A stretch of 62,337 nucleotides of DNA from a virus: positions 1 through 62,337 of the IMG/VR virus record IMGVR_UViG_3300035228_001109; one strand, 5' to 3'. Position 1 is the stretch's first letter, and every line of letters starts with the position of its first letter. The translations under genes and the position numbers were made by a program. Of this stretch, positions 247 through 53,790 are shown in pieces. The notes under the pieces are model-generated. The model was not told the origin of the DNA and did no database searches. It saw only the letters and a program-made list of their open reading frames with translations.

Positions 247-870
247 TTAAACACCAGTCTTTTGATTTGCTGCAGCAACTCTCTTATAGCGATCACTTTC
301 AGTAGAACTCCATTTCTTTGCAACAAAATTCTTACCAACACCAGTTCCTTGAACACCTTTCAGTTTTGAAAGAACTCTTGGTTTGACTGTTGGTTGAGTT
401 TTTACTACAGGTTGAGTTTTGACTGTTGGTTGAGTTTTGACTGTTGGTTCTGTCTTAGCAGGTTCAGTTGATTTTTTAGTAGCAGCGTTAGCAGGGGCAC
501 CACTAGTTACTGATTTTACTGCATCGATGCCCATATTAGTAACAGCATCATAGACCTGGTTTCTAGCAGGTGCAGAGTGTCTTGCAATACTTTGAAGTGT
601 AGAAGCACCTCTTGCAAGATTTCTACCTGCACCAATTGCTTGAGCACCTTTGAATGCTTGTCCACCACCAGGTAAAACACCTAAAGCATTTAATGCAGCA
701 CCTTTATAATTACCCTTCTTAAGATCTTGTGCTGCTCTATAAGCAGAATAAGCACCTAATCCCATACTCGCCAATTTAGCGACACCTAGTGCAGCAGCAG
801 TAAACGCAATCTCATTAATATTTTCTCTAGCAGAGTTAGATTCTGAAATAAATTGATTATATGTTTTCAT
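247..870 (-). CDS. Probable internal head protein with capsid-targeting leader
   Basis: 207 aa. The first 11 residues, MKTYNQFISES, closely match the capsid-targeting leader of T4 internal proteins IPI and IPIII (MKTYQEFIAEA), which is cut by the gp21 prohead protease after an I/L-x-E site; here I8-S9-E10. The body is Ala/Gly-rich, then has a repeated KTQP(T/V)VKTQP linker (about 145-165) and a C-terminal module KLKG...KKWSSTESDRYK. That end module recurs in the protein at 52145..52834. A late-type motif lies 21 nt upstream. I infer packaging into the head and possible ejection with DNA; the function inside the host is unknown. Confidence 0.7.
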   Translation of the reverse strand: MKTYNQFISESNSARENINEIAFTAAALGVAKLASMGLGAYSAYRAAQDLKKGNYKGAALNALGVLPGGGQAFKGAQAIGAGRNLARGASTLQSIARHSAPARNQVYDAVTNMGIDAVKSVTSGAPANAATKKSTEPAKTEPTVKTQPTVKTQPVVKTQPTVKPRVLSKLKGVQGTGVGKNFVAKKWSSTESDRYKRVAAANQKTGV

Positions 871-890: not shown

Positions 891-898
891 TATTTATT
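891..898 (-). promoter_or_regulatory. T4-type late promoter motif (AATAAATA)
   Basis: The minus strand reads AATAAATA 21 nt upstream of the 870 start codon. The T4 late -10-like element is TATAAATA; cyanophages tolerate the first base. Spacing matches the copies before 52834 and 62248. Confidence 0.45.
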
Positions 899-7678: not shown

Positions 7679-7829
7679 CGTAAAGATCCTCCTGTTGTTG
7701 GCGAAGAAAAGAAATAGTCTGATTGATGTTCTCTACCTCTTGCAGTAGTTTTAACTTACGCTTTGACATAGCAATAATACTCTTGTCAAGTTCTCCAATG
7801 TGCATCTCACGTTGCATTGGTAGTTTCAT
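7671..7829 (-). CDS. Small coiled-coil protein
   Basis: 52 aa, MKLPMQREMHIGELDKSIIA... through KLKLLQEVENINQTI, a heptad-like amphipathic helix. The start overlaps the stop of 7829..8110 (TAATG), so translation is probably coupled. No family is recognised. Confidence 0.55.
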   Translation of the reverse strand: MKLPMQREMHIGELDKSIIAMSKRKLKLLQEVENINQTISFLRQQQEDLYDV

Positions 7830-8110
7830 TAGACTAACTCCTGCTGTTGTTGCATAACTTGCTCCTCTGTAACCTCATCCACACAGTCTTGAATCACAGT
7901 GTAGATGTAATCTATCTGCCCAACATCATCAAAGATACGTGCAACAAGTGCAGGATCTTCTACCTCAATATCATAATCAACCTCACCGTTTTCATCCTTC
8001 ATATGAATATCTTCCTTAGTGTAGATCCACGCGGCACATTCTGCATCCTCACCCTGTTGTGCGATCATACTTGATACTCGGTCTTGAAGTTGCTTGAGAG
8101 TGTAGTTCAT
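7829..8110 (-). CDS. Conserved cyanophage protein
   Basis: 93 aa, MNYTLKQLQDRVSSMIAQQG, then DAECAAWIYTKEDI and a long acidic segment. The GGDAxCAAWIYTKED pattern is one I recall in several cyanophages. Overall acidic, no enzyme motif. Confidence 0.65.
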   Translation of the reverse strand: MNYTLKQLQDRVSSMIAQQGEDAECAAWIYTKEDIHMKDENGEVDYDIEVEDPALVARIFDDVGQIDYIYTVIQDCVDEVTEEQVMQQQQELV

Positions 8111-8128
8111 GATTAGAGTGAGTGAGTG

Positions 8129-8329
8129 TTAGTTAGTGGGGAAGTTCTTGCAGACAGCATCACATAGGACGCGAATTAAATCTTCCATATCATCTTCATC
8201 AATTTTATCATTCAAATATTGTGATGTTATAATAGCATCAATGTCCTCCATTAGTTGTTCTCTTTGTGATAACATTTCGAGTTGATTGTTCATTTGAAGA
8301 GTGTGAAGATAAGTCTTAATCAGTGACAT
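8129..8329 (-). CDS. Hypothetical helical protein
   Basis: 66 aa from the ATG at 8329 (MSLIKTYLHTLQMNNQLEML); the longer call needs a TTG. All-helical and acidic, ending VCKNFPTN. Unrecognised. Confidence 0.5.
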   Translation of the reverse strand: MSLIKTYLHTLQMNNQLEMLSQREQLMEDIDAIITSQYLNDKIDEDDMEDLIRVLCDAVCKNFPTN

Positions 8330-8348
8330 AATCACCAACGAGTTTGCA

Positions 8349-8522
8349 TCAGATCAGTGCCTCCATTGTGATACCTTTGTCTGCAAATGCGTCAGAAACA
8401 ATGCCACAGAGTGCATTTTCTTCAAAGTCACTCAGTTCCCAAAGTTCAGCAGCAATGCTAATCATTTCCTGAATGTTCTCACTTAGAGTGAGCATTTCAG
8501 TCAGTTGATCTTGAGTCATCAT
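8349..8522 (-). CDS. Hypothetical small acidic protein
   Basis: 57 aa from the double ATG at 8522/8519 (MMTQDQLTEMLTLSENIQEM). The ATG overlaps the stop of 8519..8740 (TGATG). Acidic, helical, unrecognised; it looks like a member of the same short helical type as its neighbours. Confidence 0.5.
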   Translation of the reverse strand: MMTQDQLTEMLTLSENIQEMISIAAELWELSDFEENALCGIVSDAFADKGITMEALI

Positions 8523-8740
8523 TGGTCGCACTCCATTAGGTTAGGACACCAAGCAGTGTCATAGGTTTCAGATGATTTAGAAACACCATTGTAGGTGTCC
8601 AACCATTCTCCATACTCTTCATAGAGAGCACGGATGTTACCAACATCTTCGAGCAAGTCACCCTCAACGTAGGTCTCACACAATGCGATAACGTGTTCGC
8701 ATTGATCTTCAATCATTGTGATCCGTTCTTGGTCAGTCAT
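8519..8740 (-). CDS. Hypothetical small acidic protein
   Basis: 73 aa from the ATG at 8740 (MTDQERITMIEDQCEHVIAL), which has AGGGA upstream and lies beyond the end of 8775..8999. The 122-aa version would overlap that gene. Helical with TAWCPNLMECDQ at the end. Function unknown. Confidence 0.5.
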   Translation of the reverse strand: MTDQERITMIEDQCEHVIALCETYVEGDLLEDVGNIRALYEEYGEWLDTYNGVSKSSETYDTAWCPNLMECDQ

Positions 8741-8774
8741 TGAGCGATTCCCTTGAGTACCTTTGTAGTATAGG

Positions 8775-8999
8775 TTAGATTGCCGCCAGTTGGCGACGAC
8801 GGAGGACAGTTCCGTAAGTGGACGCTTGGTCATCATAGAACCCTTCCACCACAGGATCGGTTCCACGCCACAGGGAAGCAACCTCACGGCAATCCTTAGC
8901 AGCGTACATTAGTTCAGCAACAGTCATTGACTTTGCCTTGTTCTCCCAGTTCTGGAAGTCTTCAGCAGTGGCGTGACGGCGAAGAGGGCGATAGGTCAT
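8775..8999 (-). CDS. Conserved cyanophage protein
   Basis: 74 aa, MTYRPLRRHATAEDFQNWEN, then KSMTVAELMYAAKDCREVAS and FYDDQASTYG. I recall this pattern as a recurring small cyanophage protein. It is preceded by a cassette-type promoter and an A/C-rich leader rather than a Shine-Dalgarno. Confidence 0.65.
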   Translation of the reverse strand: MTYRPLRRHATAEDFQNWENKAKSMTVAELMYAAKDCREVASLWRGTDPVVEGFYDDQASTYGTVLRRRQLAAI

Positions 9000-9021
9000 T
9001 GCCTTTGTTTGAACTGAATTA

Positions 9022-9049
9022 AGTATAGGGCAGAGTGAGGCAGAGTCAG
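9022..9049 (-). promoter_or_regulatory. Sigma70-like cassette promoter
   Basis: The minus strand has CTGACT (9044..9049), 16 bp and TATACT (9022..9027), then TTAATTCAGTTCAAACAAAGGCA and ATG at 8999. The TTCAGTTCAA leader recurs before 10634. Confidence 0.45.
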
Positions 9050-9065
9050 GGGCAGAGTGTGCCAG

Positions 9066-9968
9066 TTAGTCTACTGGCATAGAAAACCTACCGTGATTGA
9101 AATTATATCTAGAGAATATCTCCCTTCTCACCAGTTTATATGAACCATAGTCATTTGTAAGCACATAACCTTCAGCACTAATAAATCGTTTGCCTAAGTA
9201 TGCAGCAGGACCACCCATTGTGGCACAAAGTGTCAATCTATCCTCCTTGATTGCCTTTACAAGTTTCCATAAACGCATTAAGTTCAAATCACACTCGGCA
9301 ATATCCGCCAGTGCCTCTGGATCAAGCACAGCATCAGTTTTAATGAAAGTATTCAGAACCTTCTCAATCTTTCGTGCTTTTGTCTTAGTTTTGGCATATT
9401 CTACTGTAGTTGACATTTGACGTGCAAAGTTTACCTTATCAATATAATCACACTCATCTTCCCATCCGTCAGGTTTAACAAACAATACATCTTTAGTGCT
9501 CTTAGGCATAAGAACCATACAAGATCCTATAGCATCACGAAGATCACTCTCAGCAACATAGATTGTATGTGGAGCAACAATGATACTCTGAATTACAAGA
9601 TCAGGGAAAACATAAGTGATTGCATTAGGTGTGTAAGTGTCATCACCACCAAACCCAATAAAGTCACCCTGAAAAATACAATCAGTTCGTGGCAGACAAT
9701 CAAAACAAGAGTGGAGAATGTCTGCTACTTCACCATCATAATGTAGATCAATCTCATCGTGAGAGTGTGCAATTCGCAGTTTCTTTTTGTTGAAGACTGC
9801 TTTTGTACCTACGAAAAATGTTTTTGTAGCAGGATCAGTACCCCATACAATTGCCGGAGCACCATCAATTTTCACGGAAACGTTTGCAGGTTGAGCAAAC
9901 CAATCAAGTACACTCAGATCACCCATTAGAATAGAATCTTCAGGATGTTGCAGATGGGTGTTTTGCAT
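9066..9968 (-). CDS. Nucleotidyltransferase of the ligase/capping superfamily (DUF6267-like)
   Basis: 300 aa from the ATG at 9968, just past the stop of the upstream gene. Residues 31-39 (SVKIDGAPA) carry the KxDG motif I with the nucleotidyl-lysine at K33. Further C-terminal are FQGDFIGFGG, an EGYVL (motif IV-like) and SYKLVRREIF (motif V-like), in the order seen in DNA/RNA ligases and capping enzymes. I recall DUF6267 proteins of marine T4-like phages sharing KIDGxPA. Likely reaction: ATP-dependent adenylylation or sealing of nucleic acid ends; substrate unknown. Confidence 0.65.
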   Translation of the reverse strand: MQNTHLQHPEDSILMGDLSVLDWFAQPANVSVKIDGAPAIVWGTDPATKTFFVGTKAVFNKKKLRIAHSHDEIDLHYDGEVADILHSCFDCLPRTDCIFQGDFIGFGGDDTYTPNAITYVFPDLVIQSIIVAPHTIYVAESDLRDAIGSCMVLMPKSTKDVLFVKPDGWEDECDYIDKVNFARQMSTTVEYAKTKTKARKIEKVLNTFIKTDAVLDPEALADIAECDLNLMRLWKLVKAIKEDRLTLCATMGGPAAYLGKRFISAEGYVLTNDYGSYKLVRREIFSRYNFNHGRFSMPVD

Positions 9969-9969
9969 A

Positions 9970-10206
9970 TTAGGCGCGAATAGTGAGATAAAGGTGATCT
10001 TCATCCAGTGTGGATGCTTCACCAGTCCAACCGATAGAACCGACAGAGATAAACTCATCAGATTCTGTCATCTGAATTGTAGCAGTCTGATCAAGATAAT
10101 GCTCAGGCAATTCATTAAGAATTGCTTTCAGTTCACGATAAGTGCCACGATTCCAATTATTCTCTGGAATGTAACGCTTTTTGTTGCCAAGATTGAAAAA
10201 TGCCAT
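9970..10206 (-). CDS. Conserved cyanophage protein
   Basis: 78 aa, MAFFNLGNKKRYIPENNWNR then GTYRELKAILNELPEHYLDQ. The NKKRYIP...GTYxELK pattern recurs in cyanophages, unannotated. Its ATG overlaps the stop of the upstream gene (TAATG). Confidence 0.65.
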   Translation of the reverse strand: MAFFNLGNKKRYIPENNWNRGTYRELKAILNELPEHYLDQTATIQMTESDEFISVGSIGWTGEASTLDEDHLYLTIRA

Positions 10207-10469
10207 TACTTACCAACTCCATAATCAGGGGCAGTTGCTTCCAATTCACCAATTTCTGTCAATTGTTGTGGCGTTTCAGGCATCATATCCATCCAAGTTT
10301 CTTCACCATAACAATCGGTAACTTCTTCCTTTAGATCTTCTACAGTGTAGTCTTTAAGATTCTGCTCTACCATCTCAATGGCAAACAACTCAAGGGTTTT
10401 CATATCCATACCCTCAACAATCATCTCAGCATATTCAAATTTGAGTTGGTCAAGTTGCTTTGAGTTCAT
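10206..10469 (-). CDS. Hypothetical acidic helical protein
   Basis: 87 aa, MNSKQLDQLKFEYAEMIVEG..., acidic, with a YTVEDLKEEV segment and ELEATAPDYG near the end. Helical. Coupled by overlap to the next gene. No known family. Confidence 0.55.
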   Translation of the reverse strand: MNSKQLDQLKFEYAEMIVEGMDMKTLELFAIEMVEQNLKDYTVEDLKEEVTDCYGEETWMDMMPETPQQLTEIGELEATAPDYGVGK

Positions 10470-10505: not shown

Positions 10506-10634
10506 TTAGTAATCGTAATCAGAGTTTAGATACTCTTCAAGATCAAACTTTTTCTCATTGTAAAGATCTTGCATTTCAGGAATGTCAAAGATCTCACCAG
10601 GAGTGTCTTGAATCTCAGTCAGGAAGTCGTTCAT
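10506..10634 (-). CDS. Small acidic protein
   Basis: 42 aa, MNDFLTEIQDTPGEIFDIPE..., ending LNSDYDY. Very acidic and Tyr-rich. The start follows the TTCAGTTCAACCAAAAGCA leader shared with 8999, which supports expression. No function is recognised. Confidence 0.5.
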   Translation of the reverse strand: MNDFLTEIQDTPGEIFDIPEMQDLYNEKKFDLEEYLNSDYDY

Positions 10635-10656
10635 TGCTTTTGGTTGAACTGAATTA

Positions 10657-10662
10657 ATCATA
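10657..10662 (-). promoter_or_regulatory. -10 element TATGAT of a cassette promoter
   Basis: The minus strand reads GCCTGTATGATTAATTCAG 22 nt before the ATG at 10634, matching the context before 8999 and 3005. It lies over the 3' end of the methyltransferase gene. Confidence 0.4.
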
Positions 10663-11227
10663 CAGGCAAGACTGCCTCACTCCGCGTCTTCTGTGCCAGT
10701 TTGCTCTTTGGCACATCCAGTTCTTCCATTATAATTTGTTTTGGTAGAAAGTCCCAGCAATAGTATGAACTACTGAACGTAATCTTATCGTTTGATCTAC
10801 CATCAGGAGAGTGGAACTTCATTCGCTTGTCAAACATCAACAGTTGCAGATCCTTATCCTTGAACAACTGCTTTGGTGCAGAATCATTCAACCAAGTGTT
10901 AGTCATAATCAACGCAAATGGTTTGTTGAATGACAATGCCCGCTCAAAGAACTTACGCTTGTTTGTGAATGGAGGATTTGATACAATTACATCAAAGTGG
11001 ACAGGTTCATAGGCAAAGAAGTCTTTACCCTCATCAATGTGAGAGTATTCAACACTATGAGTCTGGGAGATTTGCTTGACAAACTCACTCTCTGCCTTGT
11101 CAAATGGACACCATACTTTTGCATCCTTTGGAATATACTTCAGGATGGGAGTAACAGCGTAATCTGGCGTATAGCACTCATCATTGTTACCTGATGAGTA
11201 CATTAGTTCTTTAGAGTCCATAATCAT
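10658..11227 (-). CDS. Adenine-specific DNA methyltransferase-like protein
   Basis: 189 aa. The NPPF motif (N84-P-P-F87, in FDVIVSNPPF) is the catalytic motif IV of N6-adenine methyltransferases, and CYTPDYAVTPILKYI with VWCPFDKAESEFV forms the SAM-binding start in a divergent form lacking a classic FxGxG. Phage enzymes of this size methylate DNA, often against host restriction. It overlaps the nuclease-like gene 11224..11724 by 4 nt (ATGA). A second in-frame ATG at 11221 has a better spaced AGGA and may be the true start. Confidence 0.7.
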   Translation of the reverse strand: MIMDSKELMYSSGNNDECYTPDYAVTPILKYIPKDAKVWCPFDKAESEFVKQISQTHSVEYSHIDEGKDFFAYEPVHFDVIVSNPPFTNKRKFFERALSFNKPFALIMTNTWLNDSAPKQLFKDKDLQLLMFDKRMKFHSPDGRSNDKITFSSSYYCWDFLPKQIIMEELDVPKSKLAQKTRSEAVLPV

Positions 11228-11724
11228 CCTAGAATACAGGTACCAATAGCATAAATCTCTTTCTTAGAGATTGTAACACCAATACGGGGATCTTTAGCGT
11301 TACCTGCTTTCTTTTTAGGATATTGCTTCTTTGCTTTTGGAATCAAAATACACAATACATCATCACAATTAAGTTTCCATACTTCTGCAATCTTAGCACC
11401 TTCATATCGTGCATAATAGTGATTCTTATACTTACCAATCTTATCTTCTACTAAGTATCTTTCTTGCTCTTCCCAAGTGTCTTGAACACTGATACCATTA
11501 TATGTTGCATTGATATTATTTGAAATAGTTGATTTATACTCTGCGCCACCATCTTGATCGAAAGCATCAGCACCACTGTAATCATCAGCGATACGATGCC
11601 CTAGAATCCCTGCCATATAAATTTCACGCGAACGTGCATAACTGAAAGGATCTCCCCACCCTTGCTTTTCACAAAGGTAGTACATATCCTCGTAGAGTGA
11701 GCGATACTGTTCTTCAGGTGTCAT
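11224..11724 (-). CDS. PD-(D/E)XK nuclease-like protein, restriction-enzyme-like
   Basis: 166 aa. The segment ADAFDQDGGAEYKS (52-65) has an acidic residue (D53/D56) followed by E62-Y-K64, the layout of a PD-(D/E)XK active site as in type II restriction enzymes. The C-terminal half is basic and beta-rich, with KKAGNAKDPRIGVTISKKEI. I recall similar unannotated proteins in cyanophages. With the overlapping methyltransferase it could form a restriction-modification-like pair, which is inference. Confidence 0.55.
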   Translation of the reverse strand: MTPEEQYRSLYEDMYYLCEKQGWGDPFSYARSREIYMAGILGHRIADDYSGADAFDQDGGAEYKSTISNNINATYNGISVQDTWEEQERYLVEDKIGKYKNHYYARYEGAKIAEVWKLNCDDVLCILIPKAKKQYPKKKAGNAKDPRIGVTISKKEIYAIGTCILG

Positions 11725-11891
11725 CAGAAAACCTCCGTCCAGGCAAGATGTTGTGCTGTAGTGATTCTACCATCATCCAGAAGACCATCACAGACTCGAC
11801 AAAAAACTTCAAACTTTTCCATACGGTCAAGTTTGTTGTCAACTCCCATTGCGGTTTCACCCACAACTCTCAAAACTTGTTTTTTAAGCAT
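11724..11891 (-). CDS. Conserved cyanophage small protein
   Basis: 55 aa, MLKKQVLRVVGETAMGVDNK, then FEVFCRVCDGLLDDG and AQHLAWTEVF. The pattern GETAMGxD...FCRVCDGLL is recalled from other cyanophages. Two Cys form a C-x2-C (CRVC) but no second pair. Its stop overlaps the start of the nuclease-like gene (TGATG). Confidence 0.6.
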   Translation of the reverse strand: MLKKQVLRVVGETAMGVDNKLDRMEKFEVFCRVCDGLLDDGRITTAQHLAWTEVF

Positions 11892-11915
11892 TGGTCTGTT
11901 GCGATTACTCCGTAA

Positions 11916-12392
11916 TCATACAGCAGTACAGAGGCGATTGGAAAACCTCTGCGCCACTTTTCCAACTGGCACACCAAAAGTATCACTCATATACCAATCA
12001 TATAACCTTAATTCTTCTTCTCTTGCCTCAATTTCGTGTGGTTGATCTTCATAAGACCAATTTTCCACTGGTTCTGTAGAATAACACAATTTTCCCCTCC
12101 GAAAATGCAGATAACCCTCTACCCATTGCTTCAGATGCGTCAATTCGTGTAAAAGAGTCTTAATATACACTTCCTTACTCATATCAGTCTGAAGTTCGAT
12201 CATAAAATTACGGGGACGATAATTGTGACCCACAACATCACAATAACCGACAACTTGTTCACTTTTCAATCCACGATGAATAATATCAACGGAGATTTTG
12301 TGGCGTGGAAAAAAGTTATTCAGAAACCAAGAGGTAACATCCTCGCAGATGATCTTAGAATAACCGTATCCAGAATGATAGATGCTAGACAT
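11916..12392 (-). CDS. SprT-like zinc metalloprotease
   Basis: 158 aa from the ATG at 12392 (MSSIYHSGYGYSK). The zinc-binding HExxH is HELTH at 82-86 (TLLHELTHLKQW), with downstream QPHEIEAREEE able to supply the third ligand, as in SprT/WSS1-type proteases that act on DNA-bound proteins. Size fits a minimal SprT domain; no zinc ribbon is seen. A role in clearing DNA-protein crosslinks or host protein degradation is inferred. The longer frame adds 7 residues from 12413. Confidence 0.65.
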   Translation of the reverse strand: MSSIYHSGYGYSKIICEDVTSWFLNNFFPRHKISVDIIHRGLKSEQVVGYCDVVGHNYRPRNFMIELQTDMSKEVYIKTLLHELTHLKQWVEGYLHFRRGKLCYSTEPVENWSYEDQPHEIEAREEELRLYDWYMSDTFGVPVGKVAQRFSNRLCTAV

Positions 12393-12450
12393 GTGCCCCA
12401 ATGTAGAAACCAAATGAACGATGATACAAATAAAAGTTTTTCTTTACCAG

Positions 12451-12621
12451 TCATACAACTAATTCAGGTGCATATTGTCCAACTTCTTCAATCAATTCTT
12501 CATCATCAAGATCACCCAGTTCTCTATTCTGTGTGTCAATGAAGAACCTCTTCAAGTCTTCAACGGTCATCTGATTAAGATCCCATTGAATGTATCGTTC
12601 TTGGAGTTGATCGCGGTTCAT
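12451..12621 (-). CDS. Conserved acidic small protein
   Basis: 56 aa, MNRDQLQERYIQWDLNQMTV, ending EEVGQYAPELVV. Related in style to 12784..12984 (both begin with a RDQL/KDQL helix and end in a LIEE helix). I recall homologues in cyanophages. Function unknown. Confidence 0.6.
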   Translation of the reverse strand: MNRDQLQERYIQWDLNQMTVEDLKRFFIDTQNRELGDLDDEELIEEVGQYAPELVV

Positions 12622-12628
12622 AATGTTT

Positions 12629-12787
12629 CTATGCTGGTGTTACACTCCATTCATCTGTCGGAACCATTGTGTTGATAATGTACTCAACATTTTTGATTCC
12701 ATACACTACAACTTTCTGGGTTGAAGTGTAACCACTTTTCTTCTCACGTTTCCATGAGACAATCCATCGATCAGATGATGCTTTCAT
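12629..12787 (-). CDS. Hypothetical small basic protein
   Basis: 52 aa, MKASSDRWIVSWKREKKSGY, beta-rich, ending DEWSVTPA. The start overlaps the stop of 12784..12984 by 4 nt, so translation is likely coupled. Unrecognised. Confidence 0.55.
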   Translation of the reverse strand: MKASSDRWIVSWKREKKSGYTSTQKVVVYGIKNVEYIINTMVPTDEWSVTPA

Positions 12788-12984
12788 ACCCAATTCTCCA
12801 TAAACTCTTCAAGAGTGTATCCCTCTCCAGTTGATGTTTCTTCAATCAATTGTTCGATTGTAAGTTCTTCCATCTCTTTACGATATTCTTCTGGTGTTGG
12901 ATCTTGTGGATCATAATCATCGTGGCAGAGATAGTCCCACTCTGCCACAAGTGCATCAATCAGTTGATCTTTAGTATAATCCAT
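12784..12984 (-). CDS. Conserved cyanophage acidic protein
   Basis: 66 aa from the ATG at 12984 (MDYTKDQLIDALVAEWDYLC). The segment EWDYLCHDDYDPQDPTPEEY is a signature I recall from several cyanophage proteins. All-helical and acidic. The 83-aa version overlaps the upstream gene and is rejected. Confidence 0.65.
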   Translation of the reverse strand: MDYTKDQLIDALVAEWDYLCHDDYDPQDPTPEEYRKEMEELTIEQLIEETSTGEGYTLEEFMENWV

Positions 12985-38075: not shown

Positions 38076-40649
38076 TTAGTATCCACCCCCATATCCACCT
38101 CCACCTTGATTTGGTGGTGGTGTTGGAGGAGATGGTGTTGGAGATGGTGTAGGCGAAGACGATCCTCCTCCCCCTCCACTACCAGACGTGCTACTCTGTA
38201 TGTTTGTTATTGGTGTTGGTGCAGGAGTTGGTTCTTGCACTGATGCTTGCTCAACTCCTACAGTAGTTGTTGATGTTTGCCTGTTTATTTGAGTTGTAGT
38301 GCTTATATTTGAAGGTAAAGATCCAAGACTTTCTGATTGAGTGTCGTAAATGTATTGATGTGGTGCTTTTCTATGCGTTGCACCAACCATTTTTCTTCCA
38401 TTTGTTGGATGAATATGGAATGGTCCATAATAAGGTTCGCCATTTACATATCCTACAAGATCATCTTCTTTAGAAATACAGTCAATAACTTGCTTAACTT
38501 CACCCTGGAATTCTGTAGGTCTCTTAATAAGTCTTGGTCTCAGTCTTAAACCAGCACCAGTGGCAGAAACTGCATTGTATTCTACAGTATTTTCTACTGA
38601 CTTATAAGTTAATGTGCCAGTACCAGTACCAGTACCAGTATCATCAACTTCACTAGTAGTACGAATTACATTGTAAACTCTACCTGAAGTGTCAACTTGG
38701 ACTGAATATTCATTTCCTTCACTATCACGGACAACATCATCTGGATTATATCCACTACCAGATCTGACAATAACCGGACCTTTCTGATCATCTGGAATGT
38801 AATCCTCAACCTCACCACCAATCGTATAGTTTTCTCCTTCGGTTACAACGTAAATATCAGTAATATTTTGGAAGGTTGGAGAATCTGGATCATAATCAAT
38901 AATTGCTCTTGCAGATGCGCCATATCCCCTATCACATTCATCAACAATCTCAACAAATGGTGGGAATGTATATCCACCACCACCATTTACAAGGTCTACA
39001 CCAAGAAGACTACCAGTCAATCCTCTATCAGCATTAGCAAGAGCCTTAATTCCACCAAAGATTGCGTTTGCAGTTCCACCTTCACCATTTCCACCAAAGA
39101 TCTTGATTTTTGTTCCACCACATCCACCAAGTTCTGGAAGACCTGTATAACAACTGCCAAGAGCACTCTTGAATCCTGGAACAGAAACACTTGGATTCAT
39201 AAAGTCGAATACACCTAAAGCACTTTCGGCAGCTCCAGCAATATCTTGAACGGCGTCTAATGCTGCTGTACCAATACTAAGTGCCTGGTTTGCTGTTTCT
39301 AAGATATCACTAACAGGTCTTCCTACTTTATCACTAGATCCTTTTCCAATAATCCATTCATTAGAAGCAAGATTGAATTCTGGGGCAATTGCATTGCAAC
39401 TGAGAGAGTCTGCAATACCAAGAATTGCATCAGCAGTACTTTTTAAGAAGTTGAGAGGACTAAATCCCATCAAAATCTTATCAATACCACCAAGTAATGG
39501 TTGAATAAATTTAGTTACTCCACCTATAATATGATTGATAATGGAACCGACTACTTGATCTGCAATACAGGATGCAAAGTTTGTTACGTTATCTACTACA
39601 TTCTTAAGAACTCCATCAATCATACCAGAGAGTCCATTAATTACATTATTTGCAATACAGGGTATTGCATCAGATAATTTTTTAACTGGACCAATTAATA
39701 GTGCCTGTGCAATAGTTCCTGCTTTTGTTGCAGCAGAATCGCTTGCTGTTGCAGCAAAAACTGTAGCATATACACCATCATATAAGACTTGCAATCCACC
39801 ATTCAATACTGGAACCATAGCATCACTAAGGTTCTTTGTCATATCTTGAACCATACGAGTAGCACCCTTTTGGATACTCGCAGTCATATTACTAATTTCT
39901 CGATATAGATCTTGCTTTACATTCCCAATTGCTTGATCAACATCACTCATAAATCCAGTTACACCGTCAGTGATATCCTGAATCTTCTTTACAAAGTTAT
40001 CAACATCATTTTTAATAGTCTTAACTGCACTATCTTTTCCACTGTCAGCAGCAGTTACTTTTTGACCAATAGCACTAGATGCTGATATTTCTGCATTTGG
40101 ATTTGCAGGATCTCCTCCAGTTCCATTTGATTTATTTAACTTCTTAGCGGTAGCAGTATCTATAGATCGTACATGCTTTTGCGAAGTAGTATTAGACTCA
40201 TTCGATTCATTTCTTGGAATATTTGCGCCATCATTCTTAACAGCACCAGTATATCCAGTAAATGCTTCAAAAGGTCCTTTATAATCGGTTGATGGAACCA
40301 TATTGGTTCTACCAAATATACCGATAATTACAGGTTGTTGAGCATTATCACCATCAAGAAAGAATCCAAAAACAGAATCACCAGGAGAAATCTTTACCGA
40401 TGTTGCTCTATTCTGAGCACCAGAACCATCAGTACAACCTAGAAGTGCTTGTGCCCAAGGAAGTTTATCATCAGGGAGATCGATTACACTATATGGATGG
40501 TATCCAAGAATGCGAACTCTGAATCGATTACCCCATCCACCACCATTGATCTGTTTGCCCTGTGATATCTCCGGAGCAATCTGACCAATCCACCAACGGA
40601 ATCCGTCTCTTCCTATAAAATTTGTTTTAAGTAAAGACTCCTCTAACAT
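38076..40649 (-). CDS. gp5-like baseplate hub protein without lysozyme domain
   Basis: 857 aa. The N-terminal 115 residues (FIGRDGFRWWIGQIAPEISQ ... ISPGDSVFGFFLDGDNAQQP ... GIFGRT) follow the OB-fold of T4 gp5. T4 gp5 then has a lysozyme domain; here the middle (150-450) is helical and hydrophobic-patterned, followed by a beta-rich part and the motif HIHPTNGRKMVGATHRKAPH (about 755-775), common in cyanophage structural proteins. The tail is Gly/Ser/Pro-rich. A (TACCAG)n tract encodes TGTGTGTG near 600-610 aa. Lytic activity has apparently moved to 41953..43944. Confidence 0.65.
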   Translation of the reverse strand: MLEESLLKTNFIGRDGFRWWIGQIAPEISQGKQINGGGWGNRFRVRILGYHPYSVIDLPDDKLPWAQALLGCTDGSGAQNRATSVKISPGDSVFGFFLDGDNAQQPVIIGIFGRTNMVPSTDYKGPFEAFTGYTGAVKNDGANIPRNESNESNTTSQKHVRSIDTATAKKLNKSNGTGGDPANPNAEISASSAIGQKVTAADSGKDSAVKTIKNDVDNFVKKIQDITDGVTGFMSDVDQAIGNVKQDLYREISNMTASIQKGATRMVQDMTKNLSDAMVPVLNGGLQVLYDGVYATVFAATASDSAATKAGTIAQALLIGPVKKLSDAIPCIANNVINGLSGMIDGVLKNVVDNVTNFASCIADQVVGSIINHIIGGVTKFIQPLLGGIDKILMGFSPLNFLKSTADAILGIADSLSCNAIAPEFNLASNEWIIGKGSSDKVGRPVSDILETANQALSIGTAALDAVQDIAGAAESALGVFDFMNPSVSVPGFKSALGSCYTGLPELGGCGGTKIKIFGGNGEGGTANAIFGGIKALANADRGLTGSLLGVDLVNGGGGYTFPPFVEIVDECDRGYGASARAIIDYDPDSPTFQNITDIYVVTEGENYTIGGEVEDYIPDDQKGPVIVRSGSGYNPDDVVRDSEGNEYSVQVDTSGRVYNVIRTTSEVDDTGTGTGTGTLTYKSVENTVEYNAVSATGAGLRLRPRLIKRPTEFQGEVKQVIDCISKEDDLVGYVNGEPYYGPFHIHPTNGRKMVGATHRKAPHQYIYDTQSESLGSLPSNISTTTQINRQTSTTTVGVEQASVQEPTPAPTPITNIQSSTSGSGGGGGSSSPTPSPTPSPPTPPPNQGGGGYGGGY

Positions 40650-40654
40650 TTGTA

Positions 40655-41953
40655 TTACTTGTTATTTTTTCCGTATTGACCAAAAGTGTCTCTGATCAAT
40701 TTTAATGAAGTATATGATCCTTCAGCATCAAAGTGATGGCAAAGTTCCTTTATCATATATAGACCACTAATTTCAGTATCGAATTCTCCACCTTTTGAAA
40801 CTGTCGTAGATGGGAAAAGACATTGAATAAGATTTCCTGCTCTCAAATTTGTATTAGATGGAATAGTTATGGTCATTGCTTGAGTGAACATAAGATTATA
40901 TCTCATAATTGATTGCGACTGATACTTAAAAGCATCCGCATTTTCTTCATAAGATACGCCATCTTCAAGTGTTCCAATATCTACAATTCCAGTAACCAAT
41001 CTACTTGGAATATCTGCAAGAGTAGTTTCAGATCCTTCATTTATTGGTGGCATTCCAAATGATCTGCCAAGATTTTTAGACTTACCTGCATAATCTTCTA
41101 ATTTGAATAGTCCTTTTTCTGGTCGAGTGTAATCAAACGTAAGGGGATTGAAATAACTTCTCTGTGTGGAAAACTGACCTAAACGAAGTTTTTCTAGAAG
41201 ATTATTATTTCTAGTTGTTACATGATTAAGAATTTGGAAGTCTTGCTTATTGTTAGGATCGGAAATCTCAGCAGCATTATAAACTTCAGAAACCTCTTGA
41301 GAGATTAAACCGTCAACAGACTTGAAACAATACCCATCTTGTGTTTCATAGAAAAAATATCCAGCAGTTCCATCTCCACCAGATTCTGGTACACCTTTTG
41401 ATGCTAACCAAGTGAGTAAAGTAAATGGTTTTTTCATATTACCAATAAAACCATACTTATTTGATGTCTGATCAATAAAGAGTTCTTTACTTGTTACCAA
41501 ATATTTTTTTATAATTTCTTCTGCTGATACTGATATTGGAGATGATGTTGGAAATCTTATAGGAACTCTGGAAGTTTCATTAGTAATTGCTTCTCTTGAG
41601 CATAGATTTAATACAAAAGTTTCCTGCTTGCTATCACGAATGACATTGGTGATACCAGAAACATAAAGAGAATTATCATCAGAAAAATTTAATCCTGGAT
41701 TATTATCAGTGTTCCCTTCAATCTTCATTGATAATCTTTCACCACCTCTTAGAGGCAATCCCAAATATACACCAGTATTATCAATAACATCACCAGTTGT
41801 AGTTACTAGAATCTTAGCAGTAATAGTTGGAGAAAAAAGATCTTCATAATAATCTATAGACTGAACACCTGGTCTTAGATCTACAGTTCTATCCTTATCT
41901 GTAGTAGATTCTATAAGTATCTCTTCATATTGTGAACTATCTTTTGCTGACAT
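40655..41953 (-). CDS. gp27-like baseplate hub protein
   Basis: 432 aa. The N-terminal tube-like domain (VDLRPGVQSIDYYEDLFSPT ... ITAKILV) and the later two beta-barrels with NLRAGNLIQCLFPS and GLYMIKELCHHFDAEGSYTS match the general layout of T4 gp27 (about 390 aa) and VgrG N-domains. It lies directly beside the gp5-like gene, as expected because gp27 and gp5 form the trimeric hub. Confidence 0.6.
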   Translation of the reverse strand: MSAKDSSQYEEILIESTTDKDRTVDLRPGVQSIDYYEDLFSPTITAKILVTTTGDVIDNTGVYLGLPLRGGERLSMKIEGNTDNNPGLNFSDDNSLYVSGITNVIRDSKQETFVLNLCSREAITNETSRVPIRFPTSSPISVSAEEIIKKYLVTSKELFIDQTSNKYGFIGNMKKPFTLLTWLASKGVPESGGDGTAGYFFYETQDGYCFKSVDGLISQEVSEVYNAAEISDPNNKQDFQILNHVTTRNNNLLEKLRLGQFSTQRSYFNPLTFDYTRPEKGLFKLEDYAGKSKNLGRSFGMPPINEGSETTLADIPSRLVTGIVDIGTLEDGVSYEENADAFKYQSQSIMRYNLMFTQAMTITIPSNTNLRAGNLIQCLFPSTTVSKGGEFDTEISGLYMIKELCHHFDAEGSYTSLKLIRDTFGQYGKNNK

Positions 41954-43944
41954 TATGTATTTCCTAGTTCTGTTAACAATAACGTAGTCATAAATCTATT
42001 TAACGGATCAGATGATGAAATATTCATAGGTTTACTTGCTGGCGGACCGCCACCTGTTGGTTGTTGAGATCCAGCAGGTGGTGGTGCTGCTGGATTTATT
42101 GGAACTGTAATATTCCTAGATTTATTTACAGGTGCTAAGTTTGTTGGTGTTGATGTATTAGAAGATGTATTATTTGCTGGTGAAGATACTTTTGCTGGTG
42201 GTACTGGTGGTTCCGTGCCAGTAATTTGTACACTCGTAAGTTGAATCAAAGAAACATATGGATCTGGTGAAGTATTACTTCCATACGTTGTACTACCCTT
42301 GTTTGTATTTGCTTCAAAGTGAATATGTGATCCTGCAGGACCTGCAGGTTGGACAGTTCCAGAATATCCAGTGACTGTGAATGATGTTCCTGCAGGTATT
42401 TTACCAGAAGTAATAATATGTCTGGTGCTATGTGCAAATCTAAGTTGAACACCTAAAGATTCTACCCAAACATCAATAACTTCACCATATCCCCCACCTC
42501 TTGCGCTACCAACAACTTCACAATCGACTTTCAAAGAAACAAATAATCCAGGATCGCAACCGATATCAATACCACCGTGTGGTCCATGCTTTCTAGGTGC
42601 TCCTAAAAGACTGGTAATAGATGCATTTTTCCCAAGAACACTGGTTACATTCTGACCTTTAGTATATCTTTTACCCGAATCTATCGTAGGTGGGGGTGTT
42701 GTTTGTGCTGGTGATGGCGACTGTGGTTCTTGATAGTTTTTGAACTTCTCAAATGCCGCTTCGACTTTATCTGGAGTAATCGTTGCTGCATTTCCATTAA
42801 ACCCTTCATAATAACTTTGTCCCCTCTTAATTGGACCTTCTTTTCCCTGAGTGTCTTCTAATACAGGAACACCAGCAAATTCCATTGCAAGTCTTTTTGC
42901 AGCTTCATTTGGATTATTGATAATCATATCCGCAGTGATACCACGGTTTTTAATCAATGCTATAGCAATCTTATCCTGATTTTCTGGACTAAAAAGATCT
43001 TTATTAACATCAAGACCTGCCAGTTCTGCTTGTGTTAATGGACTTGTTAATTGATATCTACCAATCGCACCCTTTCCACCTTTGACTCCAACCGATTTAT
43101 TTGCCTCAGCGATTGTCATAGATGTAAGATTTGGATTTTCATCGTTTGGTGCGATAGATGTATATCCACCCTCAGCACTTCCAATCAAATCTAATACTGG
43201 AGAAAGTCTACCAGCATTTGCTCCTCCGCCAGATGATGTTCCTGGTCCTGGTGCTGGTCCTGATGGATCTGTGCCTGGTTTTTTTCCAAATGATTTGATA
43301 TAGTCATTAAACCATGTACGAAGATCAAAATCTTGAAATGATTTGACCATTTCAACAATATCATCTTCAAGTGATATAATACCTTTGCGTAGTTTTCTAT
43401 CATTTTCGTCTGCTTCCCTGGTTTGATCTGGTTTTATGATACCAGTTATTCTTCCTAAAATTCCATCGAGTGCTGAAGTAAAATCTTGAAAAAATTCAAT
43501 CGTATTATCAATCCAAGATTGTAAGATTTTTCTTGCTTCCCGTATTCTCTCAATAAGAGATTGAACTGCCTTAATAATTCCAGGTAAATTTGTCAGTAAC
43601 CATCCAAGCATAACGGTACCAACAAAATCCATAATCCTTCCAAGGAATCCCTTGGTGCTTCCGGATATAGTTCTTCGTGCGCTAGAAATAATATTTGGAA
43701 GTTTTCCCGATTCAATTACACTCTCTCTTTCTTTTCTCTGTACTGCCTCTCTTCTTGTTCTGAATATTTCAGATTTTTTTAGAATTGCTCTCTGTTTTTC
43801 TCTATTGTTTACATTAAGACCTTTTTGAATACCAATACTAGTGGAGTTTGCAGTTTTTAAACCCTCACCAAAAGATAGTAGAGAACTTCTAATGTTCCCT
43901 AAACTATCACTATTTTTTAGAAGAGATTTTTGTGCTTCTGCCAT
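41953..43944 (-). CDS. Tail lysin: muramidase-like plus M23 endopeptidase domains
   Basis: 663 aa. A charged coiled start is followed by a hydrophobic span (about 107-127, FVGTVMLGWLLTNLPGIIKA). Residues about 250-350 resemble a phage muramidase/transglycosylase (LDLIGSAEGGY, GAIGRYQLTSPLTQAE, FSPENQDKIAIALIKNRG). Residues about 455-570 are an M23 peptidase with zinc ligands in HGGIDIG and SHIHFEA. The rest is Pro/Thr/Ser linker. The two activities would cut glycan and peptide bonds of the host wall during DNA entry. Its 1-nt overlap with both neighbours puts it in the hub operon. Confidence 0.7.
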   Translation of the reverse strand: MAEAQKSLLKNSDSLGNIRSSLLSFGEGLKTANSTSIGIQKGLNVNNREKQRAILKKSEIFRTRREAVQRKERESVIESGKLPNIISSARRTISGSTKGFLGRIMDFVGTVMLGWLLTNLPGIIKAVQSLIERIREARKILQSWIDNTIEFFQDFTSALDGILGRITGIIKPDQTREADENDRKLRKGIISLEDDIVEMVKSFQDFDLRTWFNDYIKSFGKKPGTDPSGPAPGPGTSSGGGANAGRLSPVLDLIGSAEGGYTSIAPNDENPNLTSMTIAEANKSVGVKGGKGAIGRYQLTSPLTQAELAGLDVNKDLFSPENQDKIAIALIKNRGITADMIINNPNEAAKRLAMEFAGVPVLEDTQGKEGPIKRGQSYYEGFNGNAATITPDKVEAAFEKFKNYQEPQSPSPAQTTPPPTIDSGKRYTKGQNVTSVLGKNASITSLLGAPRKHGPHGGIDIGCDPGLFVSLKVDCEVVGSARGGGYGEVIDVWVESLGVQLRFAHSTRHIITSGKIPAGTSFTVTGYSGTVQPAGPAGSHIHFEANTNKGSTTYGSNTSPDPYVSLIQLTSVQITGTEPPVPPAKVSSPANNTSSNTSTPTNLAPVNKSRNITVPINPAAPPPAGSQQPTGGGPPASKPMNISSSDPLNRFMTTLLLTELGNT

Positions 43945-51224: not shown

Positions 51225-51546
51225 CGTGTTTTTTGAGTGCCTCGATGGTTGCATTCATACTACTGAACAACATAGTCATATCAGTCTCAGGTGGGAAACC
51301 CATCATTGCGACTGACTTACGAAGATTCTCTTTCATTTCGACCGCTTTAGGATCGTCTGAAAGAGATAATCTAGTATACATCACTCTTTGCTTTTCTAGC
51401 AAGTTTGTGAGTATATTGATATGTTCTAGTTGGTCTTCTTTGGACATCATACTAAAACTGAAGAGAGAACCATAGATTTTCTCTTGAAGATTATTAATTT
51501 CAGTTAGTTCTTCCTGAATAATTTCAGAGTCGAAAAATTCACCCAT
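51214..51546 (-). CDS. DUF1825 family protein, cyanobacterial type
   Basis: 110 aa, MGEFFDSEIIQEELTEINNL, then MSKEDQLEHINILTNLLEKQ, MYTRLSLSDDPKAVEM and a helical end. Length and the MGxFxSEIxQEE...RxxLSDDP pattern match the DUF1825 family that is otherwise cyanobacterial. Host origin by transfer is likely. Function unknown; it sits among replication genes, overlapping gp59 by 8 nt. Confidence 0.75.
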   Translation of the reverse strand: MGEFFDSEIIQEELTEINNLQEKIYGSLFSFSMMSKEDQLEHINILTNLLEKQRVMYTRLSLSDDPKAVEMKENLRKSVAMMGFPPETDMTMLFSSMNATIEALKKHVDT

Positions 51547-52129
51547 TTACTATTGACCGCAGAAGTTTTTTGTAATTGAATACATCAATATTTATGAAGG
51601 GACTATACTTTTTTAATTTCAAACTGACAGTTTCCCACACAGGATCATCTAATTTATTATCGAAATTTTTTGAAAAATGGAAAATTTTTTCGTAAATCAC
51701 GAAGTTTTCTAGAGATAGTCTCCCGCTCAAATATCTTTTCAGAAGGATGGGATGTCCTTTGGAACAATCGAACAGTTTCTTGAATTCGTTTTCCAAGAAC
51801 AACTCGTTGCTTTGTTCTTTGAACAAGTAAGTCGAACTCTGTCTTCGTTTTTTCCATTCGGTATAAGTCCTTTCGCCAGAATTGATAATTTCTCCAATCC
51901 ATAGGTTTTGTGGGTTATCGGCAGCAGAAAAATTAGATACTAAAAAATTAACGACCTCTTCATCAGAATACTTACGAGAAGTCTTCTCAAACCAGTACTT
52001 GTCTTTCCTCTTATTAAAGGAGGATACACTAGCACGGGTCTTCGCTCCGTATTTGAAGAAGTCGTATTTGGGATTTGTGAAATGGTTTTTTAGTGAAAGG
52101 TAATGTTGATAAGTTTCAAAAGGTGACAT
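51539..52129 (-). CDS. 59: Loader of DNA helicase, gp59
   Basis: 196 aa from the ATG at 52129 (MSPFETYQHYLSLKNHF); the longer call uses a TTG. KYDFFKYGAKTRASVSSFNK, RRDKYWF-like KRKDKYWFEKTSRKYSDEE, NLWIGEI and LKKYSPFINIDVFNYKKLL follow T4 gp59 (217 aa) throughout. gp59 binds fork DNA and gp32 and loads the gp41 helicase. Confidence 0.85.
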   Translation of the reverse strand: MSPFETYQHYLSLKNHFTNPKYDFFKYGAKTRASVSSFNKRKDKYWFEKTSRKYSDEEVVNFLVSNFSAADNPQNLWIGEIINSGERTYTEWKKRRQSSTYLFKEQSNELFLENEFKKLFDCSKGHPILLKRYLSGRLSLENFVIYEKIFHFSKNFDNKLDDPVWETVSLKLKKYSPFINIDVFNYKKLLRSIVNG

Positions 52130-52144
52130 AATAAATTTCAAGAA

Positions 52145-52834
52145 TCACTTTCCTCCATATTTTTTGTATCTACCACCTTCGGTAGAAGACCAATCTCTTT
52201 TAGTGAATTTACCGGTAGATTTATTCAATTCACCAGTTTTTCCTTTAAGTTTAGCAAGAACTCTCACTGGTGATGGAGCGTTGAGGGCACCTTTCTTACT
52301 TGGTTTCATTGGTTTTGGCAATGTTTGTTTCATATTAAGTGGTTGACCACCATAAGTACTTGCAATACTGGCAACTGTTGTTGCATAATTGCGATCAGTT
52401 GCATAAGCACCATGACTTACTTCTTTAGAACCAGGAATTTTTCCCCCACCAGGAATTTGAAGTCTTTGAGCAGCCTGAAGAACACTCTCAGAACCTTTGG
52501 TTTTATAGTTCCATTTTCTCATTCTATCTGCAATAGAAGCATCTAAACTATCATAGTTTTTGAATGGTTGATTCATCATTACACTGCGACCATTCACAAC
52601 TTCTCTTGTTCTCATTGAACTGGTATTTTCGCGACTGGTTCCTTTCTGACCAAAATAGTTAAAAGAACCACTCGGATATTTGCCATATCCAGTTTCTAAT
52701 GCTGCCTGAGAAGCAATAGTATCTGCCTCTATAGCACTAGCACCTTGAGAAATTGCCCTTCTCTTTATATCGCTATAAAATTTTTGATTTCTATCCTCTT
52801 GCAAAATTTGACAAAAATCAGAAAAGGTTCTCAT
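52145..52834 (-). CDS. Capsid-targeted GH73-like glucosaminidase
   Basis: 229 aa. N-terminus MRTFSDFCQILQED resembles the T4 capsid-targeting leader and has an L-x-E prohead protease site (L11-Q-E13). Residues 20-165 follow the GH73/FlgJ fold, with the catalytic Glu at E47 in ASQAALETGYGK, then FNYFGQKG, DRMRKWNYKT and YATDRNYATTVASI. The C-terminal module (KLKGKTG...RDWSSTEGGRYK) is shared with 247..870. A late motif lies 22 nt upstream. I infer a peptidoglycan hydrolase stored in the capsid and ejected with DNA. Confidence 0.65.
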   Translation of the reverse strand: MRTFSDFCQILQEDRNQKFYSDIKRRAISQGASAIEADTIASQAALETGYGKYPSGSFNYFGQKGTSRENTSSMRTREVVNGRSVMMNQPFKNYDSLDASIADRMRKWNYKTKGSESVLQAAQRLQIPGGGKIPGSKEVSHGAYATDRNYATTVASIASTYGGQPLNMKQTLPKPMKPSKKGALNAPSPVRVLAKLKGKTGELNKSTGKFTKRDWSSTEGGRYKKYGGK

Positions 52835-52855
52835 TTTTTTTATCTTGTATGGGAA

Positions 52856-52863
52856 TATTTATC
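52856..52863 (-). promoter_or_regulatory. Late promoter motif (GATAAATA)
   Basis: The minus strand reads GATAAATA 22 nt before the ATG at 52834, touching the gp33 stop codon. Confidence 0.5.
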
Positions 52864-53123
52864 TAGATGGGCAGTTTTGCTCTTGAAGTTCTCTTCATAA
52901 AGTTGAGACGTGTCGCATCCCACTTAAGTTTCTCTTTTAGAGGTTTTGAAACGAGTTTAGTAATTGAGTCTACCTCAAGTTCATTGATTTCGCAATAGTG
53001 TACGATAGCATCAATGTAATTAAATTTTTCTTCGGAAGCAATTTTTTCAATTTCCAAGGCAAATTTGGAAGGAGTTAAAAATTTACTTTCGATTGCTTTC
53101 TCTAGTTCTTTATTAGGTTCCAT
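52863..53123 (-). CDS. 33: Late-transcription coactivator gp33
   Basis: 86 aa from the ATG at 53123 (MEPNKELEKAIESKFLTPSK); the longer frame overlaps the exonuclease gene. The helical core KFNYIDAIVHYCEINELEVD, then KLVSKPLKEKLKWDATRLNF, and the TSRAKLPI tail match cyanophage gp33. T4 gp33 (112 aa) bridges RNA polymerase and the gp45 clamp at TATAAATA promoters, which fits the many such motifs in this window. Confidence 0.75.
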   Translation of the reverse strand: MEPNKELEKAIESKFLTPSKFALEIEKIASEEKFNYIDAIVHYCEINELEVDSITKLVSKPLKEKLKWDATRLNFMKRTSRAKLPI

Positions 53124-53790
53124 AGAGCTCCAGTTTATCTCTAACAAACTTTCCAATGTATTCTGTAAGAAGTTTGATGTATTTTGATTTGTTTCGTTCT
53201 TCATAGACGACGCATTCTCCATTTTCACAAGCCATAATAATTACAAGTTTTTGGACTGATATTCCAGTCAATTCATACAGCATACAACCATATGCCATGC
53301 ACTGTACAAAGTAGTGATCGATCCATTCCCGTGGTTTGGGTTTGGCAGATGTTTTGAAGTCGATTATAGCTAACTCGCCGTCATATTCAGCGATACAGTC
53401 TACAGTCCCTGCTACACCTAATTGTTTGCTATACAGAGACCCTTCAAGGGCGTAAATATTATTTATAAGATTTAGTTTTTCTTTAGAGATCTTAAAAAGA
53501 AATTTAGAGATAGGAGGAACATCTGGTAGTTCTTCATTTTTCATAAAGTATTCAACCAATGTGTGCATATCTGTACCACGTCTCGTAGAACGTTTAGTGA
53601 TACGATCTGCTTCCTCATTACCAACTCTTTTGCGCCATTTGACAAAGATTTCCTTATTGAAATGACTGGTCACCGAAGTAATGGAGACCAGTCTAAGGAG
53701 TTCTTCTTCATCAGGCACTTTATAATAACGGACCCCATCAATAGTTTCTCTTTCTAAAGATGGAAGATCCACATCAACGTGATTGAACAT
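53113..53790 (-). CDS. RecB-family PD-(D/E)XK exonuclease
   Basis: 225 aa. Motif order as in RecB/Cas4 nucleases: an RRGTDMH helix (H76), GVAGTVDCIAEY with D131, LAIIDFKTS with D144-x-K146, then Q-x3-Y in VQCMAYGC. No iron-sulphur Cys cluster is present. Known in cyanophages as exonuclease, placed with gp33 and phoH. Likely acts on DNA ends in recombination or host DNA degradation. Confidence 0.8.
   Translation of the reverse strand: MFNHVDVDLPSLERETIDGVRYYKVPDEEELLRLVSITSVTSHFNKEIFVKWRKRVGNEEADRITKRSTRRGTDMHTLVEYFMKNEELPDVPPISKFLFKISKEKLNLINNIYALEGSLYSKQLGVAGTVDCIAEYDGELAIIDFKTSAKPKPREWIDHYFVQCMAYGCMLYELTGISVQKLVIIMACENGECVVYEERNKSKYIKLLTEYIGKFVRDKLELYGT

Follow-up and report, generated by a model that had tools for sequence, protein, structure and literature searches.

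A GH73 glucosaminidase behind a capsid-targeting-like leader in an uncultured T4-like cyanophage: a candidate for packaging in the phage head

The stretch of DNA analysed here (hereafter the window; 62,337 nt) comes from an uncultured T4-like virus whose hosts are marine cyanobacteria. It is a 62 kb fragment containing gp32, gp59, gp33, an exonuclease gene, PhoH and a tail cluster; head genes are absent from the fragment. The nearest isolate judged by the region of the gene under study is S-SKS1, with approximately 79% identity over the aligned parts. The gene is an ORF of 229 aa on the minus strand, with its ATG at 52834 and its stop at 52145, and the features in and around it are as follows.

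51539..52141, minus strand: gp59 helicase loader, 3' neighbour of the cassette (Pfam/PHROG matches, synteny)
52145..52834, minus strand: GH73 glucosaminidase with a capsid-targeting-like leader (ORF, PF01832, PDB FlgJ/AtlA, pI)
52148..52294, minus strand: C-terminal basic tail RVLAKLKGKTGELNKSTGKFTKRDWSSTEGGRYKKYGGK, common to other leader-bearing proteins (tail HMM; 13 K+R vs 3 D+E)
52352..52738, minus strand: GH73 catalytic domain, residues 33-161, with catalytic Glu E47 (Pfam; FlgJ 2zyc alignment)
52796..52834, minus strand: leader MRTFSDFCQILQE, residues 1-13, with F4 and F7, L-Q-E at 11-13 and predicted new N-terminus D14 (sequence, homologues, T4 internal proteins, PMC9026906)
52856..52862, minus strand: T4-type late promoter element ATAAATA, 21 nt upstream of the ATG (motif match; upstream of homologues too)
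52863..53228, minus strand: gp33 late-transcription coactivator, 5' neighbour, whose true start is probably further in (matches, synteny)

The first-pass annotation had given the range 52145-52863; the ORF in it is real, but the gene itself ends at 52834, the longer range having arisen because the promoter was counted in. Its assignment to the GH73-type glucosaminidases is well founded, since PF01832 was matched at residues 33-161 with E=6e-13, above the Pfam cut-off, the catalytic Glu is present, and both sequence and fold match FlgJ and AtlA. When a profile of eleven homologues was compared with PDB sequences, FlgJ, AtlA and related GH73 enzymes were matched, and E47 was aligned (FlgJ 2zyc) with the Glu in AQAALETGWGK, the common motif being ALETG(Y/W)G. 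The best fold matches in a structure search were AtlA 7qfu and FlgJ 5dn5, obtained with an AlphaFold model of fair quality only (pLDDT 67). The active-site motif and its surroundings are almost invariant across homologues, which argues for selection on catalysis. By domain match and catalytic Glu, the window protein is thus a GH73 glucosaminidase for which peptidoglycan hydrolysis is predicted; its computed pI is 10.07, and the predicted mature protein of approximately 23.6 kDa is likewise basic, with a pI of about 10.

The late motif that had been noticed before the gene was examined across the whole window, where ATAAATA shows no overall enrichment (18 found vs 19.5 expected), yet for 11 of the 18 copies an ORF starts 8-45 nt further downstream, compared with 0.73 expected and a maximum of 5 in 2000 randomisations. 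Because the element was also present upstream of every homologous gene inspected, its position and conservation bear out the motif and point to late transcription of the GH73 gene. At all loci with identified neighbours, the GH73 gene is located between gp33 and gp59. It looks inserted there, because gp59 and gp33 are adjacent in S-SKS1 and a Pfam GH73 match is absent from the whole S-SKS1 genome. Separately, the gp33-gp59 junction can be viewed as an insertion site that holds the GH73 gene (window), an SGNH-like gene or possibly a carbon-nitrogen hydrolase gene (P-SSM2); the different gene found beside gp59 in P-SSM2 (1-957) gives a weak carbon-nitrogen-hydrolase match and has no leader.

We next describe the leader. 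gp21 cleaves after L/I-x-E. Dissection of the capsid-targeting sequence (CTS) of T4 IPIII has assigned positions 4 and 7 to targeting, and positions 8 and 10 to processing (PMC9026906). In the window leader (MRTFSDFCQILQE|D), Phe occupies positions 4 and 7 and is followed by a displaced L-Q-E at 11-13, not at 8-10; this leader is atypical in C8 and I10, in the shifted L-Q-E and in D at P1'. Among the T4 leaders taken from NC_000866, those of ipII and ipIII are MKTYQEFIAE|A and that of ipI is MKTFKEFTSTTTPVSTITE|A; as the ipI site is also displaced, the displaced L-Q-E of the window leader has a precedent. Homologues at the gp33-gp59 locus of uncultured phages carry the leaders MKSFSEFLSE|A, MKPYSQFVSE|A, MKLFSQFVTE|A and MKTFNQFILE|S, and MKTFNQFLGE|A was found on three contigs (L089, L090 and L093) whose neighbour genes were unmatched. 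The leader is kept in homologues of 56-97% identity, most of them demonstrably at the same locus: F/Y4 and F7 are present in all full-length homologues inspected, and L/I-x-E at 8-10 followed by A/S is present in many, one variant (L096) being without the site. With F4/F7 matching T4, L-Q-E present and textbook forms on homologues, the earlier description of a T4-like capsid-targeting leader with an L-x-E site holds. The gp23 proteins of S-SCSM1, S-SZBM1 and S-CREM2 have L-x-E|A near residue 50-60, consistent with the same cleavage specificity. A side observation on T4 is that ipII, ipIII and lysozyme gene e are adjacent (65416-66997), an arrangement suggestive for the origin of leader-lysin fusions.

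Two trivial origins of the leader were rejected. Among internal Met codons, 2 in 4207 open a match to M[KR].[FY]..F, and for [KR].[FY]..F the frequency in the ORFs of cyanophages is 4.5e-4 per position; on account of this background rate (~5e-4 per start) and of the conservation among homologues, a chance resemblance was rejected. The leader is also not a piece of the GH73 fold, since phage GH73-type proteins without it were found (S-SCSM1 ORF213, L097 and L099).

The same type of leader recurs on virion enzymes of cultured cyanophages. We compared S-SCSM1, S-SZBM1 and S-CREM2, T4-like isolates with published lists of virion proteins; as far as found, no phage with a virion proteome bears the cassette. 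The NMNAT of S-SCSM1, detected in the virion by mass spectrometry (MS), starts with MKSFLQFLKE|A (PMC9602691), and the MS-detected cytidylyltransferase of S-SZBM1, the sole enzyme besides structural proteins on the virion list of that phage, starts with MRFRQFIIE|A (PMC9146016). The S-CREM2 virion enzymes listed in Table 3 of PMC10665884 include a SAM hydrolase (MKDFDSFLEE), a kinase (VKRFDAFLTE) and a cytidylyltransferase (MKNFSSFLTE|A), and the virion protein annotated as 'Cas9' has RFASFMAE|A at residues 18-26; this annotation is uncertain, since the protein (7704-10313) gave no Pfam match at E 0.1. On these proteome lists, 5 of the 8 proteins with the strict leader in the three genomes are virion proteins, compared with 122 of 711 other proteins (p=0.006). 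In S-CREM2 alone, 6/52 virion proteins have the tight motif within the first 30 residues, as do 3/167 of the others (p=0.006), both comparisons being of small numbers with modest p-values and an exact motif tuned while looking. The three leader proteins undetected by MS in those lists have 105, 106 and 165 aa. A loose pattern (any gap, first 30 residues) had little predictive value in the same S-CREM2 list (7/52 vs 13/167, p=0.17), so that the tight pattern alone was used. The baseplate-hub lysins listed in these virions have no leader (S-CREM2 endolysins 208/209 and lysozymes 169/170; S-SCSM1 hub lysozyme 213), as expected for tail proteins. The consulted parts of the source papers leave both packaging and contamination possible for virion enzymes and do not mention the leader (PMC9602691, PMC9146016, PMC10665884). 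The leader is likely to be the reason why non-structural enzymes occur in cyanophage virions.

Across nine complete cyanophage genomes, the tight pattern gave 18 matches: 7 of the 9 genomes have it on an NMNAT-like protein or cytidylyltransferase, and the rest are a small conserved protein encoded close to the head genes, plus a few further proteins. A search of S-PM2 did not find the strict leader, and the NMNAT of S-CBWM1, a phage outside the Kyanoviridae listing, is reported in virions and has an annotated start without the leader. The small conserved protein (MKSFKQFxSESVNIxGDFxGN; S-SKS1 112701, S-SCSM1 44215, S-SZBM1 122311, S-RIM2 100850, DSL-LC03 118339 and contig G008 4542) has a textbook leader and lies among or near head genes in several genomes; it is a candidate core or internal protein, unnamed in annotations. 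Several other observations were made on cargo proteins. A second short domain (GLxSDGHGxW...VAKT), possibly a packaging or adaptor module, is shared behind the leader by several of them (S-SCSM1 88819-90048; S-CREM2 10579-12846 and 7704-10313; S-SKS1 72899-73234). Leader-like C-termini (KKRTFKEFLEYIE and EPKTFRDFLN) occur on two virion proteins, S-SCSM1 ORF93 (91626-91835) and the S-CREM2 'Cas9', and an NMNAT-like cargo protein of S-SKS1 (72006-73234) is apparently split into a leader ORF and an enzyme ORF.

The first-pass annotation had proposed to look for the same leader elsewhere in the genome, and it is indeed present on a second protein near the start of the window.

247..870, minus strand: second leader-bearing protein, 207 aa, MKTYNQFISE|S..., pI 10.4, with a related tail (tail HMM)
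280..381, minus strand: tail motif of the second protein, residues 164-197 (tail HMM)
841..870, minus strand: textbook leader MKTYNQFISE of the second protein (compare T4 ipIII MKTYQEFIAE)
891..897, minus strand: ATAAATA late element before the second protein (motif match)

The C-terminal ~50 residues of the GH73 proteins have the consensus VLAKLKGKTGELNKSTGKFTKRxWSSTEGxRYKKYGGK. Searches with an HMM of this tail found it on other proteins, every tail-carrying family found having the leader, and an HMM built without the 247-870 protein retrieved that protein with E=5.8e-6. The L096 protein, between gp33 and gp59, starts with MKSFAQFLTA, a leader that keeps both Phe and has no Glu, and ends with the tail; the body between them (GDSIAVG ... 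DGVHPRSY) gave no Pfam match and reads as SGNH-like. In DSL-LC03 and S-PRM1, a protein beside gp23 has a leader (MKSFNQFCKDANIQE; VKTFNQFREECGLEE) with the tail motif close behind. A BLAST search of phages with the tail motif gave mostly chance matches to Streptomyces helicases and a weak match to DSL-LC03 (E=0.1), which looks real because it falls in the leader protein by gp23. As judged from these sequences, the GH73 gene appears to be a swappable cassette with a constant leader, a constant basic tail and a variable enzyme body. We also noted that the annotated start of the DSL-LC03 protein (130424-131107) is probably too far upstream, the leader beginning from codon 40, and that several IMG/VR loci (L023/L050, L024 and L025) have arrays of unrelated small leader-first proteins beside relatives of the 247-870 protein.

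No gene for gp21 was seen within the 62 kb window, a fragment that lacks the head cluster. Contig G008 (65.8 kb) has gp21 and a textbook-leader GH73 gene together, and S-SKS1 also has gp21. The tail cluster of the window includes two further proteins of relevance.

38076..40649, minus strand: gp5-like baseplate hub protein (phrog 'hub subunit and tail lysozyme')
41953..43944, minus strand: separate tail-hub lysin candidate, 663 aa (phrog_90 and phrog_3572 endolysin matches; weak M23-like match)

The hub lysin candidate agrees with the earlier proposal of a tail lysin separate from the GH73 protein, which would then be a second muralytic enzyme.

The explanation that we prefer, and that we regard as reasonably probable when taken as a whole, is that the GH73 protein is late head cargo. 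Its gene would be transcribed from the T4-type late promoter; the leader would dock the protein into the prohead core via F4 and F7, and would be removed by gp21 after L-Q-E13 during head maturation; and the basic mature protein would remain with the packaged DNA. At infection, it would exit through the tail with the DNA and, acting from the periplasm, cleave glycan strands in the peptidoglycan of the cyanobacterium, so complementing the tail-hub lysin. Packaging in the phage head is well supported because four lines of evidence point to it, namely the leaders of homologues, the MS-detected virion enzymes, the co-occurrence with gp21 and the swappable leader/tail cassette. Cleavage of the leader by gp21 is probable, and cleavage exactly before D14 plausible. 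That the enzyme is then ejected and acts on the wall during entry seems to us about as likely true as false. Internal proteins of T4 reach the cytoplasm (PMC9026906). No peptidoglycan is present there, so that the GH73 protein would need to be released in the periplasm. Such a periplasmic release is known for the ejection proteins of podoviruses. The case for a wall-cutting enzyme ejected from the head is therefore uneven: its packaging part is supported by leaders on homologues and on MS-detected enzymes, and is stronger than first stated because the leader recurs on the latter, while action at entry is a step that we infer.

The main rival holds that the GH73 protein is the endolysin of lysis, acting late with a holin, the leader being incidental or marking a minor packaged fraction. 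All PHROG matches of the protein are called endolysin, lysis late in infection would agree with the late promoter, the window proteins that were scanned include no second recognisable stand-alone lysin, and the T4 lysozyme gene e adjoins ipIII; however, the leader is conserved while the body is exchangeable for an SGNH-like enzyme, the tail is common to non-lysins, related lysozymes of isolates have no leader, and because the genome is incomplete a separate endolysin may lie outside the window. We consider this reading unlikely, and a mixed role in head cargo and lysis possible. Another reading accepts packaging in the head, with wall cutting at entry as a secondary role: the protein would be chiefly a basic one associated with the core or the DNA, or would have another target once ejected. 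The pI of 10 and the Lys-rich tail, the presence of this tail on proteins without a recognised enzyme domain (window 247-870, DSL-LC03 and S-PRM1), and the basic, DNA-contacting nature of T4 internal proteins (PMC3012670) favour it, whereas the near-invariant GH73 active site argues for selected catalysis; it appears to us somewhat unlikely.

Two further readings have much lower probability. A tail-associated lysin in the baseplate with a CTS resemblance by chance is very improbable: large GH73-type proteins of cyanophages (S-RIM2 and S-SCSM1 ORF213) do lie in the hub cluster, and ORF213 is among the virion proteins, but such hub proteins are large, leaderless and located by gp51, whereas the window protein is small (229 aa), lies between gp33 and gp59, and has a conserved leader with a chance of ~5e-4 per start. 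Least probable of all, to the point of being nearly negligible, is an export signal carrying the enzyme to the periplasm. The N-terminus of the L096 protein is somewhat hydrophobic and ends in a V-F-A-like site, but a hydrophobic core is absent from the N-termini of the GH73 versions (maximum 11-residue Kyte-Doolittle values of 0.48 and 0.05), which keep L/I/V-x-E, and a signal peptide on these versions was thus ruled out.

If head packaging by the leader is general, T4-like cyanophages would run a protein-delivery system that loads exchangeable enzymes into the head, a view for which the arguments on the two sides seem to us of equal weight. Its payloads would include NAD-metabolism enzymes, a SAM hydrolase, kinases, a Cas9-like protein and wall enzymes (GH73 or SGNH-like), and one lineage would use the leader plus a conserved basic tail. 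Metabolic enzymes have repeatedly been found in purified virions by cyanophage proteomics, where the choice between packaged protein and contaminant was undecided, and a recognisable leader makes virion packaging testable as a prediction from sequence. This view points to enzymes that alter the host and are delivered into ocean cyanobacteria just as they are infected. With a wall hydrolase among the payloads, phages that have a tail lysin would possess a second muralytic enzyme, stored in the head. For a phage with a contractile tail, such a head-stored enzyme matured by gp21 would amount to a new way of entry through the envelope. The literature searched, which covered few subscription papers, contained nothing on a CTS in cyanophages or on a muralytic enzyme in a T4-like head.

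The known kind to which this system belongs is the internal proteins of T4, and the new element is a wall enzyme with a CTS tag. IPI, IPII and IPIII share with the window protein the aromatics at positions 4 and 7, the L/I-x-E site, a basic mature protein, a late gene and exchangeable bodies behind a conserved leader. They differ in that the cut site of the window leader is shifted by three residues, and in that the T4 payload is an anti-restriction protein or Alt, not a peptidoglycan hydrolase. We know of no shared C-terminal tail like that of the cassette in T4. The virion enzymes of S-SCSM1, S-SZBM1 and S-CREM2 have the same leader type, but their payloads are metabolic or counter-defence enzymes. 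FlgJ and AtlA share the catalytic fold and the Glu, and are cellular enzymes without the leader or the tail. The GH73 tail-hub lysins of cyanophages (S-RIM2 and S-SCSM1 ORF213) are virion-associated enzymes of the same type, but, unlike the window protein, they are much larger, leaderless and encoded in the baseplate-hub cluster. Wall-cutting enzymes that are stored in the head, ejected and active in the periplasm are also known from podoviruses, namely T7 gp16 and further ejection proteins that have a muralytic domain; unlike the window protein, they belong to another protein family, have no capsid-targeting leader, and form part of a trans-envelope channel in short-tailed phages.
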